The translations under genes were made by a program, and so were the position numbers. Of a stretch of DNA of 64,000 nucleotides, positions 5,942 to 29,454 are shown in pieces. This stretch comes from Thermoplasmatota archaeon. GTDB lineage: Archaea; Thermoplasmatota; Thermoplasmata; Thermoplasmatales; Thermoplasmataceae. Under the pieces are notes generated by a model. The model ran no database searches. It saw only the letters and a list, made by a program, of their open reading frames with translations, and had not been told where the DNA came from. Each line of letters starts with the position of its first letter. Position 1 is the first letter of the stretch. The DNA is taken from assembly GCA_023488885.1 (NCBI GenBank), contig JAMDDH010000037.1, positions 1 to 64,000 of the forward strand, given 5' to 3'.

Positions 5942-6895
5942 GTGGTTGACGTTCAGTACGTAACATTAGTAGAAACAGTGCTCCAGTACTTCTTCGTAGT
6001 ACTTTTTGCTCCGTTATTTGCAGGGATTTTGGCAAGTTTCAAAAGCAAAGTTGAATCAAAGAAGGGACCCAGTATATTTCAGCCTTATTATGATCTGTTC
6101 AAGCTTCTGAGAAAAGAGACACTCCTTCCGGAAGGATCGGGGCTGCTTTTCAAATACATTCCCTATGTTGCATTCGGAGTCTATTCGCTCATTAGCATCA
6201 TCATACCCGTACTGATTCCGCAACCTATCTATTTCACGGCTTCAGCAGATTTCCTTGGCGGTGCCATTCTTTTCTCCACAGCGGCCTTCATGAAAATGGC
6301 TGCTGCCATGAACTCAAACAGCAATTTCTCTGCTCTGGGAACTTCCAGGGCAATATCCTTCAACTTCTTGTCTGAAGGCACCCTGATCACGGTATTCTTT
6401 GCTGTTTCACTCATAACGGCAACCAACAATCCCTATGTAACCAACCACTTCCTTGTAGCAAATCCGCTTCAGAATGTTTCCCTGGACCATATATTTGCTA
6501 CGCTGGCTTTCCTGATGCTTTTCCTTTATGAAACCGGAAAACTGCCACTTGAAAGTTCCGGACTCCAGGAACTGGGAATGATAGAAGAAGGGCTTAATTA
6601 CGAATACAGCGGAAAATTGCTTGCAATAAACAAATGGGGATCATACATCAAGCAGTACCTTCTGGGTTCGGTACTGTTAAATGTATTCCTCCTGCCCTGG
6701 GGTCTGTTCTCAACATATCCTTTATTCTTCCTGGATGTTCCGGTTATGATTCTCAAGTGGTTGCTTCTGATATTCATAGTGATCGCGATAGAAACCACGC
6801 TTGCTAAATTGAGGCTATTCAGGATTCTTGACTACCTGGCAACGGCCTTCACCTTCTCAATATTATTCCTGATTTTCAGCGAGGTGATAGTGTGA
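5942..6895 (+). CDS. Hydrogenase-4/complex I membrane subunit, HyfC/NuoH-like
   Basis: A 317-residue membrane protein with about eight hydrophobic helices, homologous to NuoH/HyfC, the subunit that joins the membrane arm to the peripheral arm of complex I and group-4 hydrogenases. Family marks are the early KGPSIFQPYYDLFKLLRKE loop, and LPLESSGLQELGMIEEG, which corresponds to the acidic quinone-proximal loop. The start is GTG at 5942. It is the first of six genes that overlap or abut, so they are one operon. It acts in the cytoplasmic membrane. Which electron donor or acceptor the complex uses cannot be read from this subunit. Confidence 0.85.
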   Translation: MVDVQYVTLVETVLQYFFVVLFAPLFAGILASFKSKVESKKGPSIFQPYYDLFKLLRKETLLPEGSGLLFKYIPYVAFGVYSLISIIIPVLIPQPIYFTASADFLGGAILFSTAAFMKMAAAMNSNSNFSALGTSRAISFNFLSEGTLITVFFAVSLITATNNPYVTNHFLVANPLQNVSLDHIFATLAFLMLFLYETGKLPLESSGLQELGMIEEGLNYEYSGKLLAINKWGSYIKQYLLGSVLLNVFLLPWGLFSTYPLFFLDVPVMILKWLLLIFIVIAIETTLAKLRLFRILDYLATAFTFSILFLIFSEVIV

Positions 6896-7539
6896 GTTCA
6901 ATTGCAGGCACTCTCGCTTACCCGATTTCAAGCTTTATACTTATCTCGGCATTTTACATGCAGGGACAGGAATTCATCAGGCCAATGATAAGGGGGCAAC
7001 TTATCCAGTCACTTCTCATTGCAGCTGTATCCTTCATTGTTGGATTTTCTGAGAATAATATTGACTTTATTATTCTCGGTATTTTCATAGTGTTTCTCAG
7101 GGGGGCCCTTGTAACTTATTTCCTTGAGAAAGGCGTTCCATCCAAGAAAGTATATTTCTATGAAAAGAAAGTCGACGTGGCCTATCTGCTTCTGGTTGAT
7201 CTTATATTCATCGTAATAGCGGTATTCCTGATCTATTCCATTGTATTCAGTTCCATCTCCATAAAATCACTGATCGGAAATAATGGAATCCTGGTGTTCC
7301 CGCTGACACTTTTCTTCCAGGGACTGTTTCTTATAGCGTCAAGACGCACAACATTTGCCCAGATAATTGGATATGTAGAGGAGGAGAATGCGCTGGTTCT
7401 CTTCGCGCTGTTCCTGCTTCCCATACCAATAATCATAGAGGCGAGCGTGTTCATGGATGTTCTCGCGCTTGTTGTGATTTCCTCCATTGTAGTAATAGAG
7501 AAATCCACGCATGAAAGAGTTGAGGAGCTGATCGGATGA
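6892..7539 (+). CDS. Hydrogenase-4-like membrane subunit, HyfE-like
   Basis: A 215-residue protein with about six to seven hydrophobic segments. Its position between the HyfC-like and HyfF-like genes matches HyfE, a membrane subunit whose C-terminal part is related to NuoK. It starts with GTG and overlaps the preceding gene by 4 bp; its end overlaps the next gene by 4 bp. It probably contributes to the proton- or ion-translocating arm. Sequence identity to characterised HyfE looks low by eye, and the assignment relies partly on gene order. Confidence 0.7.
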   Translation: MSSIAGTLAYPISSFILISAFYMQGQEFIRPMIRGQLIQSLLIAAVSFIVGFSENNIDFIILGIFIVFLRGALVTYFLEKGVPSKKVYFYEKKVDVAYLLLVDLIFIVIAVFLIYSIVFSSISIKSLIGNNGILVFPLTLFFQGLFLIASRRTTFAQIIGYVEEENALVLFALFLLPIPIIIEASVFMDVLALVVISSIVVIEKSTHERVEELIG

Positions 7540-8885
7540 GTCCGGGACTGTTTCTTGTAATCTTGACTCTATTTGTCCCGGTTGTCGCATTCCTGTTTTA
7601 TTTTGCCGGCCTCAAAGCCGCCAACATAGCGGGAGGGGTTATCAACACCTCAATCGCCGTTCTTCTCTACTTCTTCCGTCCTCCAGTCGGCTTATTCTTT
7701 GTGGATTTTACCACATGGGTTTTCATAATGATGGTTACCGCCATCAGCCTGCTTTCATCGTTTTATGCCACGAGGTACTTCAAAGGCTCAAAAATGGGCA
7801 TAAAGGAAGAAACTTTCTACCTTTTGATGGCCCTTTTCACCACATCCATGCTCTTCAGCCTTGTGATTAACAATTACGGGCTGATGTGGGTGGGCATAGA
7901 GGCTACCACAATATCATCTGCACTGCTCCTCATTACGGACAAGACGGAAACGTCGCTGGAAGCTACGTGGCGCTACCTCGTCATCGTATCTGCGGGAGTG
8001 ACGTTTGCCTTCTTCTCAATAATTCTGATATACTACTCCCTCGGAACGCTTGAGGTGTCAAGCGTGCTTGCAATCACAGCCGGAACTAAATCCACACCTA
8101 TCCTGAAGATAGCGGTCGCCATTGCCCTGATCGGATTTGGCACAAAGGTCGGCGTGTTTCCGGTCCACACATGGTTACCTGACGCCCACAGTGAGGCACC
8201 TTCGCCCGTAAGTGCCATGTTCTCCGGAGTTCTTCTTCCAACCGCACTGTATGTTCTTTACCGTATATTCGAGATCGATCCTTTAAGAAGCCTGTACGTG
8301 TGGTTCGGCGTCATATCCGTGGTTGCTGCCTCAATATTCCTCGGATACCAGACCAGGTACAAGAGAATGTTCGCATACTCGACAATGGAAAACATGAACT
8401 TGGCCCTGATAGGCTTTGCCAGCGGTGGCATAGCCGGAATAACCGGGGCTCTGCTTCTGCTTATATCACACAGCTTCGGCAAGGCGGGTGCATTTTACTC
8501 GTCGGGCAATGTCCTGAAGGCTACCGGAAAGAAAGGGATTGAAGATATAAACGGGCTCTGGAACTCAATGCCCATGACCTCCGGTTCCATGCTCCTGTCC
8601 TCTCTCGCGGTAACTGGAACTCCTCCCTTCGGTACGTTCTTCGGCGAATTCCTGATACTTTACAATCTGTTGACGCTGCATTATTACATTCAATTTGTAA
8701 TTGTACTATTTTTCCTTATGACTGCATTCATCTCGGTTAACCTCAACGTTTCAAAGATGATCTTCAGAGGGGAATCTGACTATTCCGAACCTGACAGGGT
8801 AATGCCGCTGATTTCCATGGTTTCGTCAGTCATGCCCATCGTGATAGGAATAATTTTCCTGGTGATGACAATTGAAATGGTATAA
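7536..8885 (+). CDS. Antiporter-like membrane subunit, HyfF/NuoN-like
   Basis: A 449-residue proton-translocating subunit with about 14 helices, related to NuoL/M/N and MrpD. Conserved features are the glutamate in MWVGIEATTISSALL (trans-membrane helix 5 of the family), the lysine-containing IGFGTKVGVFPVHTWLPDAH segment and SHSFGKAGAFYSSG. These charged residues line the ion path in characterised relatives. It overlaps both neighbours (4 bp upstream, 14 bp downstream). It belongs to the membrane arm of the same complex as the other five subunits. Confidence 0.85.
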   Translation: MSPGLFLVILTLFVPVVAFLFYFAGLKAANIAGGVINTSIAVLLYFFRPPVGLFFVDFTTWVFIMMVTAISLLSSFYATRYFKGSKMGIKEETFYLLMALFTTSMLFSLVINNYGLMWVGIEATTISSALLLITDKTETSLEATWRYLVIVSAGVTFAFFSIILIYYSLGTLEVSSVLAITAGTKSTPILKIAVAIALIGFGTKVGVFPVHTWLPDAHSEAPSPVSAMFSGVLLPTALYVLYRIFEIDPLRSLYVWFGVISVVAASIFLGYQTRYKRMFAYSTMENMNLALIGFASGGIAGITGALLLLISHSFGKAGAFYSSGNVLKATGKKGIEDINGLWNSMPMTSGSMLLSSLAVTGTPPFGTFFGEFLILYNLLTLHYYIQFVIVLFFLMTAFISVNLNVSKMIFRGESDYSEPDRVMPLISMVSSVMPIVIGIIFLVMTIEMV

Positions 8886-24362: not shown

Positions 24363-24824
24363 TTGGGGTTGCATAAAAATAATGAACCCTTGGCTGAATT
24401 CATAGCCCAGGAAGAGAGAATCAGGGATGTATATGAGGGTCTTCTCATGAATTCGGTGCAGGAAAACATTCGGTTTTTCCTTGAAACTTTCATGAAAAGT
24501 CATGAAGAAATAATCGAACAGCTGACCCAATTTGGAGTGAAGCCTCAAAATAAAGTCCCGCAACCAGGACAGTCTCAGAAGAATATTCATGCTACGTACC
24601 ACCTGATGGCAGAACAAAACCCTGATTTGAACAGTCTTCAAAGTACTTTGCTGTTCATAGCGAAGTCAGAGCAGGAATCACTTGACGCCACTATATCGCA
24701 TTCAAAGAAGATAGAAAATGCTAAGACGAAAGAATTCATTGTGAAAATAATAGAAGCAAAGAAGCTTATGGCTTCAAAAGCTGACAGATTATACCATGAC
24801 TTTATCGAATCAAAGCTATCATAA
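24363..24824 (+). CDS. Ferritin-like four-helix protein (tentative)
   Basis: A 153-residue all-helical protein with four long predicted helices (about 8-32, 35-60, 90-118 and 122-150). Acidic residues sit at matching places, for example IAQEERIRD, KSHEEIIEQL and AKSEQESLD, which recalls ferritin/rubrerythrin-like bundles. The classic ExxH metal motifs are incomplete, so metal binding is uncertain. The start is probably TTG at 24363 or 24369; the first ATG comes 28 codons later. It lies 12 nt upstream of dtdA on the same strand and may be cotranscribed with it. Confidence 0.4.
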   Translation: MGLHKNNEPLAEFIAQEERIRDVYEGLLMNSVQENIRFFLETFMKSHEEIIEQLTQFGVKPQNKVPQPGQSQKNIHATYHLMAEQNPDLNSLQSTLLFIAKSEQESLDATISHSKKIENAKTKEFIVKIIEAKKLMASKADRLYHDFIESKLS

Positions 24825-24836
24825 TTCATAAGTGTA

Positions 24837-25634
24837 ATGATGCATCTGATAATAGCCTCAAAACAGGACGAAGCCAGCCTTTCTATGGCTGGTCATTTGC
24901 TTGAAACCGTAGAATTCACAGAAGATGGGTTCGGACCTGATATACTTAAACACGGCGAATACCTCTTCTCGTACATAGAAGAACGACATCTCTTCTTCAA
25001 CGAATTTGATCACAAGTACGGATCCATCAGGGGCAATATTGATGACGTGATTTTTCTTTCCAGGCATTCTTCCGCAGCGGACGTGAAATCAATTACGGTT
25101 CACCCGACTGGAAACTACGGCGAAGCTAAACTTGGAGGAATGGAAAACACCCTTTCAGTGAGCGACCCGCGGAAAATGACATCTGCGTTGAGATCTATGG
25201 CCGAATATTATTCAGGGAGCGACTTCAGCGTGACCTTCGAGGCAACCCATCACGGCCCACTTCTCGGGGTACCTAACTTCTTTATAGAAATAGGCACCAA
25301 AAGTGAACAGTGGAAAAACAGGGAGGCTCTTGACATAGTTGTGCACGGGCTTTTTTCAAATGCTGAAACTAACTTGGATTCATTTGTCGGCGTTGGCGGC
25401 GGACACTACATGCCAAAAATAACAAAATATGCTCTTGAAAACCATGTGAACATAGGACACATGATATCAAAGCACGCACTTGAAAACATAAACGAGGGCC
25501 TGATAATGGAAAGTATCCGGAAAACAGGTAACTGCACTGGATTCATTATGGATAAGAAAGGTACAAAATCAAAGCCGAAAGAAATGATAACGAAAATCGC
25601 CAAAAACCTCAATCTCGAAATCATTTACGTATGA
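24837..25634 (+). CDS. dtdA: D-aminoacyl-tRNA deacylase, archaeal type
   Basis: A 265-residue DtdA/GEK1-family enzyme, which removes D-amino acids wrongly attached to tRNAs and so protects translation. Conserved segments are VHPTGNYGEAKLGG, EATHHGPLLGVPNFFIEIG, GVGGGHYMPK and the C-terminal metal-site region NIGHMISKHAL. The archaeal enzyme is unrelated to bacterial DTD and uses zinc. It follows the ferritin-like gene by 12 nt and precedes, after a gap, a cluster whose members are related to D-amino-acid enzymes. Confidence 0.9.
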   Translation: MMHLIIASKQDEASLSMAGHLLETVEFTEDGFGPDILKHGEYLFSYIEERHLFFNEFDHKYGSIRGNIDDVIFLSRHSSAADVKSITVHPTGNYGEAKLGGMENTLSVSDPRKMTSALRSMAEYYSGSDFSVTFEATHHGPLLGVPNFFIEIGTKSEQWKNREALDIVVHGLFSNAETNLDSFVGVGGGHYMPKITKYALENHVNIGHMISKHALENINEGLIMESIRKTGNCTGFIMDKKGTKSKPKEMITKIAKNLNLEIIYV

Positions 25635-26032
25635 GCAGAACAACCATGGAATTTATACTGGAAATGAAAGTGACTCCTTTATTGTCGCTTATGTGACCAC
25701 TTACCCATGTGTGTCATTCCAGCTCCATAGGCAGAGGGGAATATACGCTGTCGAAAAACATTTGAAAACTTGGTAGAGGCATTTGTTAACCTATAGAGAG
25801 GACCGTTATTTTAACGACTATAATTCCCGTTTAAGGGGTGCATCAGTTAAAACAACATGAACGCATAAAAATCAATGCATATTTTAATATATATATTATT
25901 GTGTATATGCGTACCGAGTCAGGGAAACACATATTCGACAAGCGACAAAAGATTCTTTTCCGACAAGAATATGTTTAAATAGTTTACATCGCTTAAAGGT
26001 TTAAGTCAGGCATAAAGCCTGAGTGAAATAAA
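25635..26032. other. Intergenic region with promoter and leader hairpin
   Basis: About 400 nt with no gene recognised. Near the right end there is a TATA-like element (gtttaaata, 25973-25981). It is followed by the hairpin TCAGGC-ataaa-GCCTGA (26006-26022), which ends 10 nt before the ATG at 26033 and would be the 5' end of the transcript. Three cgaca units occur between 25935 and 25970 and could be an operator. Confidence 0.4.
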
Positions 26033-26998
26033 ATGGAAGGAATGGACGAAGACGAACCTCCTGGCAGAACGCCATTTTTTAGAGCCAAAAACTTAGAACG
26101 AGCCCTCAGATTAAAAAACCTTTTCATCAAATTCGAGGGAGCTGGAATTACAGGGACACAAAAAGATAGGATTTCCAAACTGCATGTTCTCAGGGCAAAA
26201 GAGATGGGATACGATACAATTTCTCTCGCCACTTGCGGAAATTATGGTGCATCTATTTCTCATTTTGCAAATATCTACGGACTCAAATCCGTGGTAGCAG
26301 TGCCCGAATATTATGCTGGAGAACGGAATGAGGAGATCAGGGCAAACGGTTCACAGATTCTTGAGGTCTCCGCTAAATATGAAGACCTTGTGGAGTACAT
26401 GCGAGATCGCTCCAACGACGAGAATTGGTATGATTCAAGCCCTGGATCCAAGAATTCCCAAATCGATCTGGAAGGATATGAAAACATAGCCTACGAGATA
26501 GTTTCTCAACTCGGAAGGGCACCATCATTTGTTTCAGTACCTCTGGGCAATGGCACAACTCTGGCAGGCATATATTCCGGTTTTGATAAGATGTACAGCA
26601 GGGGAACAATAAGAAAAATCCCCAGATTCATAGGTTCCAGCACACCGAACGGTAATCCAATTGTGGCCTCATGGAGAAAGAGGAGAAAGACTGTAATGGA
26701 ACTTGACCCGTCAACCATAAGGGAGACCAAAGCATCAGAGCCGCTTGTCTCATACAGGTCCTACGACGGGCAGAAAGCTCTTAACGCCATATACCGGAGC
26801 AACGGTTTTGCCACTTACGTAACAGATGAAGAAATGTACCGTTATTCAACGTTGATAGAACACTTTGAAATGTTATCAGTACTTCCTGCATCAGCATCAT
26901 CGCTGGCCGCCGTGGATAAGGTCATAAACAGGAAGTCAGACAGCAGGGATATAGTCGTGGTACTCACCGGAAGGTCGAGAATGTGGACAACGCAGTAG
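26033..26998 (+). CDS. Threonine-synthase-like PLP enzyme
   Basis: A 321-residue fold-type II PLP enzyme. The candidate Schiff-base lysine is Lys44 in GITGTQKDR, where threonine synthases have TGSFKDR. The phosphate- and substrate-contact segments are altered: LATCGNYGAS replaces the usual SSGN, and PLGNGTTLAG is the PLP-phosphate loop. It is shorter than typical threonine synthase (about 350-400) and lacks the N-terminal domain, so a different beta-replacement or elimination, or an amino-acid racemase activity, is plausible. It overlaps the next gene by 16 bp, which argues that the two act together. Confidence 0.65.
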   Translation: MEGMDEDEPPGRTPFFRAKNLERALRLKNLFIKFEGAGITGTQKDRISKLHVLRAKEMGYDTISLATCGNYGASISHFANIYGLKSVVAVPEYYAGERNEEIRANGSQILEVSAKYEDLVEYMRDRSNDENWYDSSPGSKNSQIDLEGYENIAYEIVSQLGRAPSFVSVPLGNGTTLAGIYSGFDKMYSRGTIRKIPRFIGSSTPNGNPIVASWRKRRKTVMELDPSTIRETKASEPLVSYRSYDGQKALNAIYRSNGFATYVTDEEMYRYSTLIEHFEMLSVLPASASSLAAVDKVINRKSDSRDIVVVLTGRSRMWTTQ

Positions 26999-28011
26999 TA
27001 CTGGCTGAAGGAGTCTTTGGAACCACTTACGGGAAGACTGCAAACGGGCTTGTCAGGTTCACTAAACGTTACAATGTGAGATCGGTCATAGATTCAACAA
27101 GAGCAGGAAACGATGCCGGCCAGGTTCTTACTGGGAAAACAAGAGGAATCCCTATAATTTCTTCAATAGGCGAAGCATTGGAAATTGGTGCAGATACCCT
27201 TGTCGTCGGTGTGGCGACCGATGGAGGTTACATACCTGATGAATACAGGAGCTTCATAAGGTCTGCCATAGAGAATGGACTGAATGTGGTGAGCGGACTG
27301 CACGAATTCATCAGCGACGATCTGGAATTTTCTGGACTGGCAATGAAAACGGGATCTACCATAACTGATGTCAGGAAACTGTTCCGTGATCTTAAGCCCC
27401 CTTATACCGGACAAATAAGGGAGGTTGGTTCATACAGAATTGCAGTGCTTGGCACAGATAGTGCGATTGGCAAGAGGACCACTGCAGTAATCATGACCAA
27501 TGCACTTCAGGATAAAGGCATTTCCTCGTTGATGATAGGAACAGGACAGACGGCATGGATGCAGGGGTTCAAGCATACAGTGGTTGTCGATTCCATGATA
27601 AACGACTTCATACCGGGCGGTCTTGAAAAAATAACAGTGGAAGCATGGAGAGAAGAGAGACCGGAGATCATGTTCATTGAGGGCCAGGGTTCAGTGCTGC
27701 ATCCAGCCTATCCGGGGAGCTTTGAGATCATAGGCGCCTGCAGACCTGATGCCATAATCCTTCAACATGCTCCCAAGAGAGAATTCTTTGACGGTTTCCC
27801 GGAATTCAGGATACCTGATCTTGAGAGGTACATACAAATTCTTGAGCTTCTGTCTCGAAAAAGAGTAATAGCTATTTCACTGAACAGGGAGAACATGACC
27901 GATAGCGAGGTCAGGGAAGAAATAGAGACTCTGCAGGGCAAACTGGGCATTCCGGTATTTGATCCGCTGAGCGCTCAGCCATCAATACTTCTGGAGATTG
28001 CAGAGCACTGA
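26983..28011 (+). CDS. DUF1611 P-loop protein (DgcN-like)
   Basis: A 342-residue DUF1611 protein. An N-terminal Rossmann-like domain (about 1-145) precedes a P-loop domain with GTDSAIGKRTT at 157-167, TGQTAWMQG, and FIEGQGSVLHPAYPG, which are hallmarks of this family. Family members include DgcN, a protein reported to act on D-glutamate. This gives a possible but not firm link to D-amino acids. It starts inside the preceding PLP-enzyme gene and ends 6 nt before the PP-loop gene, so the three form one operon. Confidence 0.75.
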   Translation: MDNAVVLAEGVFGTTYGKTANGLVRFTKRYNVRSVIDSTRAGNDAGQVLTGKTRGIPIISSIGEALEIGADTLVVGVATDGGYIPDEYRSFIRSAIENGLNVVSGLHEFISDDLEFSGLAMKTGSTITDVRKLFRDLKPPYTGQIREVGSYRIAVLGTDSAIGKRTTAVIMTNALQDKGISSLMIGTGQTAWMQGFKHTVVVDSMINDFIPGGLEKITVEAWREERPEIMFIEGQGSVLHPAYPGSFEIIGACRPDAIILQHAPKREFFDGFPEFRIPDLERYIQILELLSRKRVIAISLNRENMTDSEVREEIETLQGKLGIPVFDPLSAQPSILLEIAEH

Positions 28012-28017
28012 TATCGA

Positions 28018-29454
28018 ATGAGTTATGCTCAGAAGATTTCTGTTTTCGATGAGATAAGAATCAAGCCTCTACAGATTGGAAAACGCTTAATAAGCGGGAC
28101 TGTAAGCATAAAATCCGGTGATCTGCTGAAGGAATACCGGATCATTTTTTCCTATTCGGATGAAATAAACGTTTCCGAGAATTTGGCTGGCCTTATCCTC
28201 ACAATGCCGGTTATCAATTTTACTCTTTTCACAAATAGGCTTATTCTCGATTTCCCGGTTTCAGATCTTGACCTCAGGAATGTCCGGGAACTTGTGAGGA
28301 TTAACAACAGGGAAGTTTTCATAAACAAGCTGTTGAGAAGAAGATACGAGTTCTTCAAAAAAGAGTATCTGCCGGAGGAATCGGACATAACTGCAGAAAA
28401 TATTGACGGTATAACTGAGGTAGCATCGTCAGGAACATACACTGATGAAGCACACACCGGCACAGGGAACAACTCAGTTGCGGTTCTTTCTTCAGGAGGG
28501 AAGGAAAGCCTCCTCTCATATGGTATATTACGGGAAACAGGCGCCGAAACCCATGCTTTTTATTTCAACGAATCCGGATCACACTGGTTCACAGCCAAAA
28601 CAGCATTCCATTACTACTCCAGAAACTTTGAGAACGTTCACAAGGTCTGGTCAAACGTTGATCGGTTCTATCGATTCTGTCTTAGAAACCTTCCCATTAT
28701 AGACCAGGCTGCCATCAGGAAAAAGACCGATACCTATCCTCTCCAGTTATTCATTTTTCCCGTTTACATAATGTCAATGATCCCTGTAGTCCTGAAATAT
28801 GGAATCAGCAATGCAGTTTTAGGCGATGAGTTCGATGACCCGCGAGAAATGACTGATTTTAGGGGATTCCGGCATTATTACGGGATATTTGATCAGTCTC
28901 ATGACTTCAACTCCATGATTAGCCGTTACTTCCGGGCGAAGGGAATCCCTCTAGAAATCTGGTCCGCCGTCTACCCTGTATCCGGTTCAGTTGTGGAGAA
29001 GATGCTTATACAAAGATATCCGGATCTGTTCAGGCTCCAGCGTTCATGCCACAGTTGCAGGCCCGTAGATGGTCAAATGATTCCATGCGGCAAGTGCTCC
29101 AAGTGTCTCGGAATAATGATGTTCACAATGGCCGCCGGAGGGGACCCGAAGGAGATACTTTACAGTGATTCCGAAATCAGCAATCTCGGTGAGCTTGTGT
29201 CAAGGGAACGAATGAGGCTTGACACCGACGAGCTGAACCTGATGAAATTCAGGCTTGGCTTCATCAGGGATCATTTCGTGCCGCCTGAACATGTGGAAGG
29301 GATACACCGTTTGCCGGATGAAGAAACGTTTTTTCAGAAGATTCCTGGCAATTTCAGGGACAAAATATCCAACCTGATTGAACAATATTCATCAGGAAAA
29401 TTCGTAATGGAAAACGAGGAATGGGTAAGAAAAGACGAGTTAAAAGAACAATGA
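28018..29454 (+). CDS. PP-loop protein resembling MurL epimerase
   Basis: A 478-residue protein with a PP-loop ATP-pyrophosphatase motif, SSGGKES at 158-164. A cysteine cluster follows: CHSC (344, 347) and CGKCSKC (357, 360, 363), probably binding zinc. The region from YPLQLFIFPVYIM to AVLGDEFDD is the family's substrate-side part. This layout resembles MurL, which epimerises L-Glu to D-Glu on a peptidoglycan precursor by an ATP-dependent mechanism. Thermoplasmatales have no peptidoglycan, so the substrate must differ. It is the last gene of the operon and overlaps convergent tsr3 by 15 bp. Confidence 0.6.
   Translation: MSYAQKISVFDEIRIKPLQIGKRLISGTVSIKSGDLLKEYRIIFSYSDEINVSENLAGLILTMPVINFTLFTNRLILDFPVSDLDLRNVRELVRINNREVFINKLLRRRYEFFKKEYLPEESDITAENIDGITEVASSGTYTDEAHTGTGNNSVAVLSSGGKESLLSYGILRETGAETHAFYFNESGSHWFTAKTAFHYYSRNFENVHKVWSNVDRFYRFCLRNLPIIDQAAIRKKTDTYPLQLFIFPVYIMSMIPVVLKYGISNAVLGDEFDDPREMTDFRGFRHYYGIFDQSHDFNSMISRYFRAKGIPLEIWSAVYPVSGSVVEKMLIQRYPDLFRLQRSCHSCRPVDGQMIPCGKCSKCLGIMMFTMAAGGDPKEILYSDSEISNLGELVSRERMRLDTDELNLMKFRLGFIRDHFVPPEHVEGIHRLPDEETFFQKIPGNFRDKISNLIEQYSSGKFVMENEEWVRKDELKEQ

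Follow-up and report, generated by a model that had tools for sequence, protein, structure and literature searches.

Our data suggest that three adjacent genes in the genome of a Thermoplasmatota archaeon, encoding a pyridoxal 5'-phosphate (PLP) enzyme of the PALP family, a DUF1611 protein and a PP-loop ATPase, form an operon for the ATP-driven epimerisation of an amino acid or peptide, the predicted substrate class being N-acylated amino acids or peptides. We see the chances for and against this function as evenly balanced. The genes lie in the window analysed here, i.e. positions 1 to 64,000 of contig JAMDDH010000037.1. The proposal is made because the run of genes is conserved and led by a predicted promoter, because the PP-loop protein combines a QueC-type fold with the absence of the QueC signature and is related to the glutamate epimerase MurL, and because DUF1611 genes elsewhere stand in racemase neighbourhoods. 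No description of this operon was found in the literature. In window coordinates, the features are:

24837-25634, forward strand: dtdA, D-aminoacyl-tRNA deacylase (PF04414, 216.5 bits), judged to lie outside the operon
25974..25981, forward strand: TATA-like box TTTAAATA, 59 nucleotides (nt) upstream of the PALP start, the predicted operon promoter
26033-26998, forward strand: PALP, a threonine-synthase-like fold-type II PLP enzyme (PF00291, 176 bits; NF004996, 416.7 bits)
26983-28011, forward strand: DUF1611 protein, DgcN-like, with a Rossmann and a P-loop domain (GTG start; PF07755, 212 bits; PF17396, 97 bits)
28018-29454, forward strand: PP-loop ATPase with a QueC fold, a distant MurL relative and predicted ATP-dependent epimerase, as judged from structural model, fold, profiles and motifs

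The 3' end of the PALP gene and the 5' end of the DUF1611 gene share 16 base pairs (bp), and 6 nt separate the stop of the DUF1611 gene from the start of the PP-loop gene; these distances, like the positions of the four genes, are as an earlier, sequence-only reading of this stretch had described them. In Pfam and NCBIfam searches the DtdA, PALP and DUF1611 proteins scored well above the Pfam cut-offs for their families, while the PP-loop protein of the window alone gave no convincing family match in either collection. A first search of 84,980 genomes found 19 PP-loop relatives, all within Thermoplasmata (e.g. Acidiplasma and Ferroplasma), and in each of the 18 with complete loci the order PALP, DUF1611, PP-loop gene is the same. 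The overlap of 16 bp persists in 11 of these loci, at protein identities as low as about 43%. In a class-level sample, 86 of 400 genomes had a PP-loop match, nearly always a full-length member, and a phylum-wide search placed the gene in other classes as well (families f40, f47, f48 and f60), again in the same gene order in almost every locus where the sequence extends far enough. The run is present in seven family-level groups across Thermoplasmatota. Since the order is found in all 18 complete loci, the overlap in 11 and the run itself in distant classes of the phylum, this arrangement is not due to chance, and the joint conservation of the three genes on which the sequence-only reading hinged is confirmed. 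In family f3 and in genus g24 of family f4, the DUF1611 and PP-loop genes stand together without an adjacent PALP gene, which is sited elsewhere in g24 and in one f3 genome (G096) and has no copy above the cut-off in other f3 genomes. As these lineages keep the pair by itself, the DUF1611-PP-loop pair is the core of the system and PALP a frequent third member. An in-frame TAG in f4 PP-loop genes, at first sight pyrrolysine-like, is an ordinary terminal stop. In locus L098, the PP-loop gene occupies positions 6165-7580 on the forward strand.

A box of the form TTTA[AT]ATA lies 41-63 nt upstream of PALP in 15 of the 18 loci, and none of this form was seen upstream of the DUF1611 or PP-loop gene in these loci. 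In the window, the TATA box falls within the 398-bp gap between dtdA and PALP. dtdA adjoins the run only in the window's own family (f1) and is absent from it in all other lineages. From this limited adjacency and the placement of the box, PALP is probably the first gene of the operon, and we judge DtdA to be a neighbour rather than a functional partner; the proposal that DtdA serves as protection within the system is thus not supported. Immediately 5' of dtdA, at 24363-24824, lies an open reading frame for 153 amino acids without a Pfam or NCBIfam assignment, which is a dtdA neighbour in many loci of the window's family. A small palindrome, TCAGGC-ataaa-GCCTGA (26006-26022), follows the TATA box, precedes the PALP gene and could be an operator or a leader hairpin.

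The strongest argument for an epimerase comes from what stands beside DUF1611 genes in other organisms. DgcN, a DUF1611 protein, is reported to act by N-acetylation and its partner DgcA on N-acetyl-glutamate, in agreement with their NCBIfam names. The archaeal protein carries both domains, DUF1611_N (PF17396) and DUF1611 (PF07755), has solved homologs (2g0t, 7xrj and 2obn) and conserves a P-loop, GTDSAIGKRTT. It is 29% identical to Pseudoalteromonas DgcN, and its NCBIfam DgcN score of 172.7 bits lies well below the cut-off of 480, so that the action on D-glutamate, to which the sequence-only reading had linked it, cannot be transferred to this subfamily. In both systems, a DUF1611 gene is followed by an epimerase or racemase gene in a tight operon, but where DgcN is paired with an enolase-type N-acetyl-D-glutamate racemase, the archaeal DUF1611 protein, of another subfamily, has a PP-loop ATPase in the epimerase slot and no dgcA next door.

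Among sampled plasmid DUF1611 loci, the next gene encodes a racemase in 10 of 18, six of these being enolase-type (DgcA or dipeptide epimerase) and four of the alanine/ornithine-racemase type. The latter adjoin the closest bacterial relatives of the archaeal DUF1611 protein (42-43% identity), with a 4-bp overlap where annotated. These pairs, on plasmids of Ruegeria, Vibrio and Aliiroseovarius, thus combine the closest non-archaeal DUF1611 proteins found with an overlapping racemase gene, but the racemase is a PLP enzyme and no PALP or PP-loop gene was recognised alongside. For such overlapping genes on marine plasmids (L080:9875-12192, L081:9869-12207, L166:3387-5671 and L167:3348-5719) no published description was found. 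A DUF1611 protein on a Vibrio nigripulchritudo plasmid (L085:5899-7068) has a degenerate P-loop, GDDTTISRLST, and probably does not bind nucleotides.

In the archaeal sister family f2, the PP-loop gene was found in none of the sampled genomes, and DUF1611 is retained in most. Here, an enolase-type epimerase is present in 14 of 18 genomes, at least 58% identical to the G059 copy near DUF1611 and in several genomes beside DUF1611. Unrelated racemase and epimerase families therefore share one slot next to DUF1611, which in most other operon-bearing Thermoplasmatota is filled by the PP-loop gene. Because unrelated racemases occupy this very slot, the PP-loop protein is itself a candidate epimerase, and this argument is independent of the weak sequence matches described below. 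In some f48 genomes, an enolase-type gene and a gene for an M14-like peptidase face the operon (L105:3476-5914, L106:3347-5767 and L102:4267-6688), in an arrangement resembling peptidoglycan-peptide recycling pairs; the best NCBIfam score of the enolase-type gene is to L-Ala-D/L-Glu epimerase, below the cut-off.

By its fold taken alone, the PP-loop protein would also be permitted to be a ligase. The AlphaFold2 model (confidence score, pLDDT, of 92; built from 31 sequences) has QatC as its closest solved fold (Z 15.5 over residues 9-416, i.e. including the N-terminal extension), followed by Cap9 (13.6) and QueC (13.5). The protein might thus adenylate a carboxylate, possibly that of a deazaguanine, and link it by an amide bond to ammonia, to an amino acid or to the N-terminus of a protein, the amine partner being made by DUF1611 and PALP. 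The retained zinc-type cysteine cluster is in line with such a role, as are matches of the PADLOC QueC model to 9 of 31 members (best 9.8e-4). The window protein carries the motifs SSGGKES, NESGxHW, GDEFDDP and SCHSC...CGKCSKC; among 44 distinct members of the family, NESGxHW is found in all, G-x-E-[FYM]-DD in 42 and SCHS[CS]...CGxCxKC in 41, the CGxCxKC cluster itself being present in all 44. What the family shares with QueC, QatC and Cap9 is therefore the fold, the PP-loop and the cysteine cluster. It differs, however, in the SGGK[DE][SA] loop, which in the archaeal proteins mostly has E for D, and in the absence of three further motifs, YxQxHxxE, VPxRN and YPDC, the catalytic signature of QueC (PMC13329287, the source also for the comparison with Cap9 motifs). 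This signature, with its motifs for the recognition of 7-carboxy-7-deazaguanine and for catalysis in QueC and Cap9, is found in none of the 44 members but in 31 of 31 true QueCs of the same order. Moreover, no family member matches the NCBIfam QueC models, a canonical QueC is encoded elsewhere in the genome, the PADLOC QatC model gave no match, and no QatB-like neighbour was recognised nearby, though no search aimed at QatB was made. As DUF1611 genes are also partners of racemases and not of ligases, we consider a ligase unlikely.

Kinship with MurL was assessed by profile searches against 18,950 NCBIfam models, whose curated cut-off for MurL is 700 bits, and by bridging paralogs. Eleven of 17 divergent PP-loop members match the MurL model (best 6.3e-4), the only NCBIfam model matched by several of them, and for the member whose alignment is shown the match is in register (residues 296-370 against MurL 262-339). 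A rare divergent PP-loop paralog with an SCGKDS loop, closer to MurL and seen in two of the genomes searched (L092:2916-4151, reverse strand, and L093:437-1852), matches MurL at 5e-6 and 4.8e-4, respectively; in hhalign comparisons it matches the PP-loop family with 99% probability (E 8e-18), versus 68% (5e-5) for QueC. In a scan of 380 genomes, three of the six best MurL-profile matches belong to the PP-loop family or its paralog, one of the three being out of register. The first MurL match obtained (L008, E 0.0019, residues 217-289 against 303-371) and a similar one in G240 were discounted because their register disagrees with that of the others. Searches (tblastn) of plasmids with the PP-loop protein and the L092/L093 paralog gave chance matches or none, and viral contigs gave no match. 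The family is thus a distant relation of MurL, in part by transitive evidence, rather than a member of the MurL family. With 11 of 17 members matching MurL, no QueC-model match, no QueC motifs and a separate QueC, the suggested closeness to MurL rather than to a tRNA-modification family is upheld.

MurL itself uses ATP, releases AMP and epimerises the terminal L-glutamate of an N-acylated peptide in the direction from L to D only (PMC8788868), its proposed mechanism being adenylation of the alpha-carboxylate (PMC8788868, PMC5808125). The archaeal PP-loop protein has MurL (XOO_1319) as its nearest annotated family by profile, is of similar length (about 475 residues against 447 model positions), has the aligned regions in the same order and would likewise be expected to use ATP. 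It differs in scoring far below the cut-off, in having neither a MurD2 partner nor a peptidoglycan substrate and in its linkage to DUF1611 and PALP. The genome has a single Mur-ligase homolog, which by its sequence resembles a folylpolyglutamate synthase (FolC), in agreement with the earlier statement that these archaea have no peptidoglycan, and for this reason MurL's own substrate is not expected in this archaeon.

The third protein, PALP, invites the alternative that the operon belongs to ordinary amino-acid metabolism, with PALP as threonine synthase and housekeeping neighbours held together by general synteny. PALP indeed exceeds the cut-off of the NF004996 'threonine synthase' model (416.7 against 266 bits), and a wider gene order, valS-dtdA-tsr3-pyrG, is also kept in the window's family. 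With ThrC it shares the PALP fold and the PLP lysine (K44, in an invariant TGTQKDR motif), but it does not stand with thrB or hom, and it is one of seven PALP genes in a genome with a separate thrB-thrC pair on contig C24. Because this pair is sited elsewhere, the operon PALP is not the housekeeping threonine synthase. The run also persists across classes in which all other neighbours have changed, and its genes overlap or nearly abut behind one promoter, so that we regard this alternative as highly improbable. Racemisation is known for some fold-type II enzymes and is one possible role of PALP here.

In the simplest joint model, an amino acid would be capped at its amino group by the DUF1611 protein and, in this capped form, inverted by the PP-loop enzyme with ATP. 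The DUF1611 protein would N-acylate or otherwise cap an amino acid, and the PP-loop enzyme would use ATP to adenylate the N-acylated amino acid or peptide at its carboxylate. Adenylation would acidify the alpha-hydrogen, the centre would invert and hydrolysis would free AMP and the product, as proposed for MurL. PALP may supply or consume the amino acid by beta/gamma replacement or elimination.

Several observations weigh against such an epimerisation module. The solved structure most similar to the model is QatC, a QueC relative that is proposed to modify proteins and is not an epimerase. No entry named MurL is among the fold-search matches (Foldseek/VIA lists), which in itself is not evidence against kinship. 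The direct MurL matches are all weak (14-25 bits against the 700-bit cut-off), the kinship being drawn from profile comparisons. For 8 of the 18 plasmid DUF1611 genes sampled, no racemase was recognised next door, so the association is frequent but not universal, and occupation of the slot is not strictly exclusive, as some f48 genomes hold an enolase-type epimerase beside this operon too. Finally, the model gives no firm role to PALP, which f3 and g24 lack beside the pair or altogether.

The same chemistry could also serve salvage, with environmental D-residues turned to L in archaea that live by scavenging peptides; as chemistry is shared, our confidence in salvage and in the epimerisation module overlaps. 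We consider salvage quite possible, though short of an even prospect. It would parallel DgcN-DgcA, which runs from D-glutamate to L-glutamate (PMC10845958, PMC12363236), and the epimerase-like gene and M14-like peptidase beside the operon in some f48 genomes are like the peptidoglycan-recycling pairs of PMC5808125. MurL, however, works only from L to D (PMC8788868), and DUF1611, which all 51 high-quality genomes from the order possess, looks more like a core function than an optional catabolic one.

Beyond epimerisation as such, we regard it as possible, though less likely than not, that a MurL-type ATP-driven one-way epimerase, acyl-capping by DUF1611 and a PLP enzyme constitute an old Thermoplasmatota pathway which, without peptidoglycan, may build a D-amino-acid-containing metabolite or cell-surface component, and that DUF1611 proteins may generally act with epimerases or racemases of three or more unrelated families. 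By published account, MurL is the first ATP-consuming epimerase, and its mechanism is unsettled; the reviews consulted place it in bacteria, with relatives of low similarity in a fungus, cyanobacteria and an amoeba, and do not list archaea. A conserved archaeal relation of MurL beside a racemase-partner family is a tractable and often thermophilic source for solving this mechanism. If the proposal is true, DUF1611 would gain a unifying role as partner of interchangeable epimerases, and a hitherto unrecognised chemistry of D-amino acids would be close to a core function in archaea that have no peptidoglycan.

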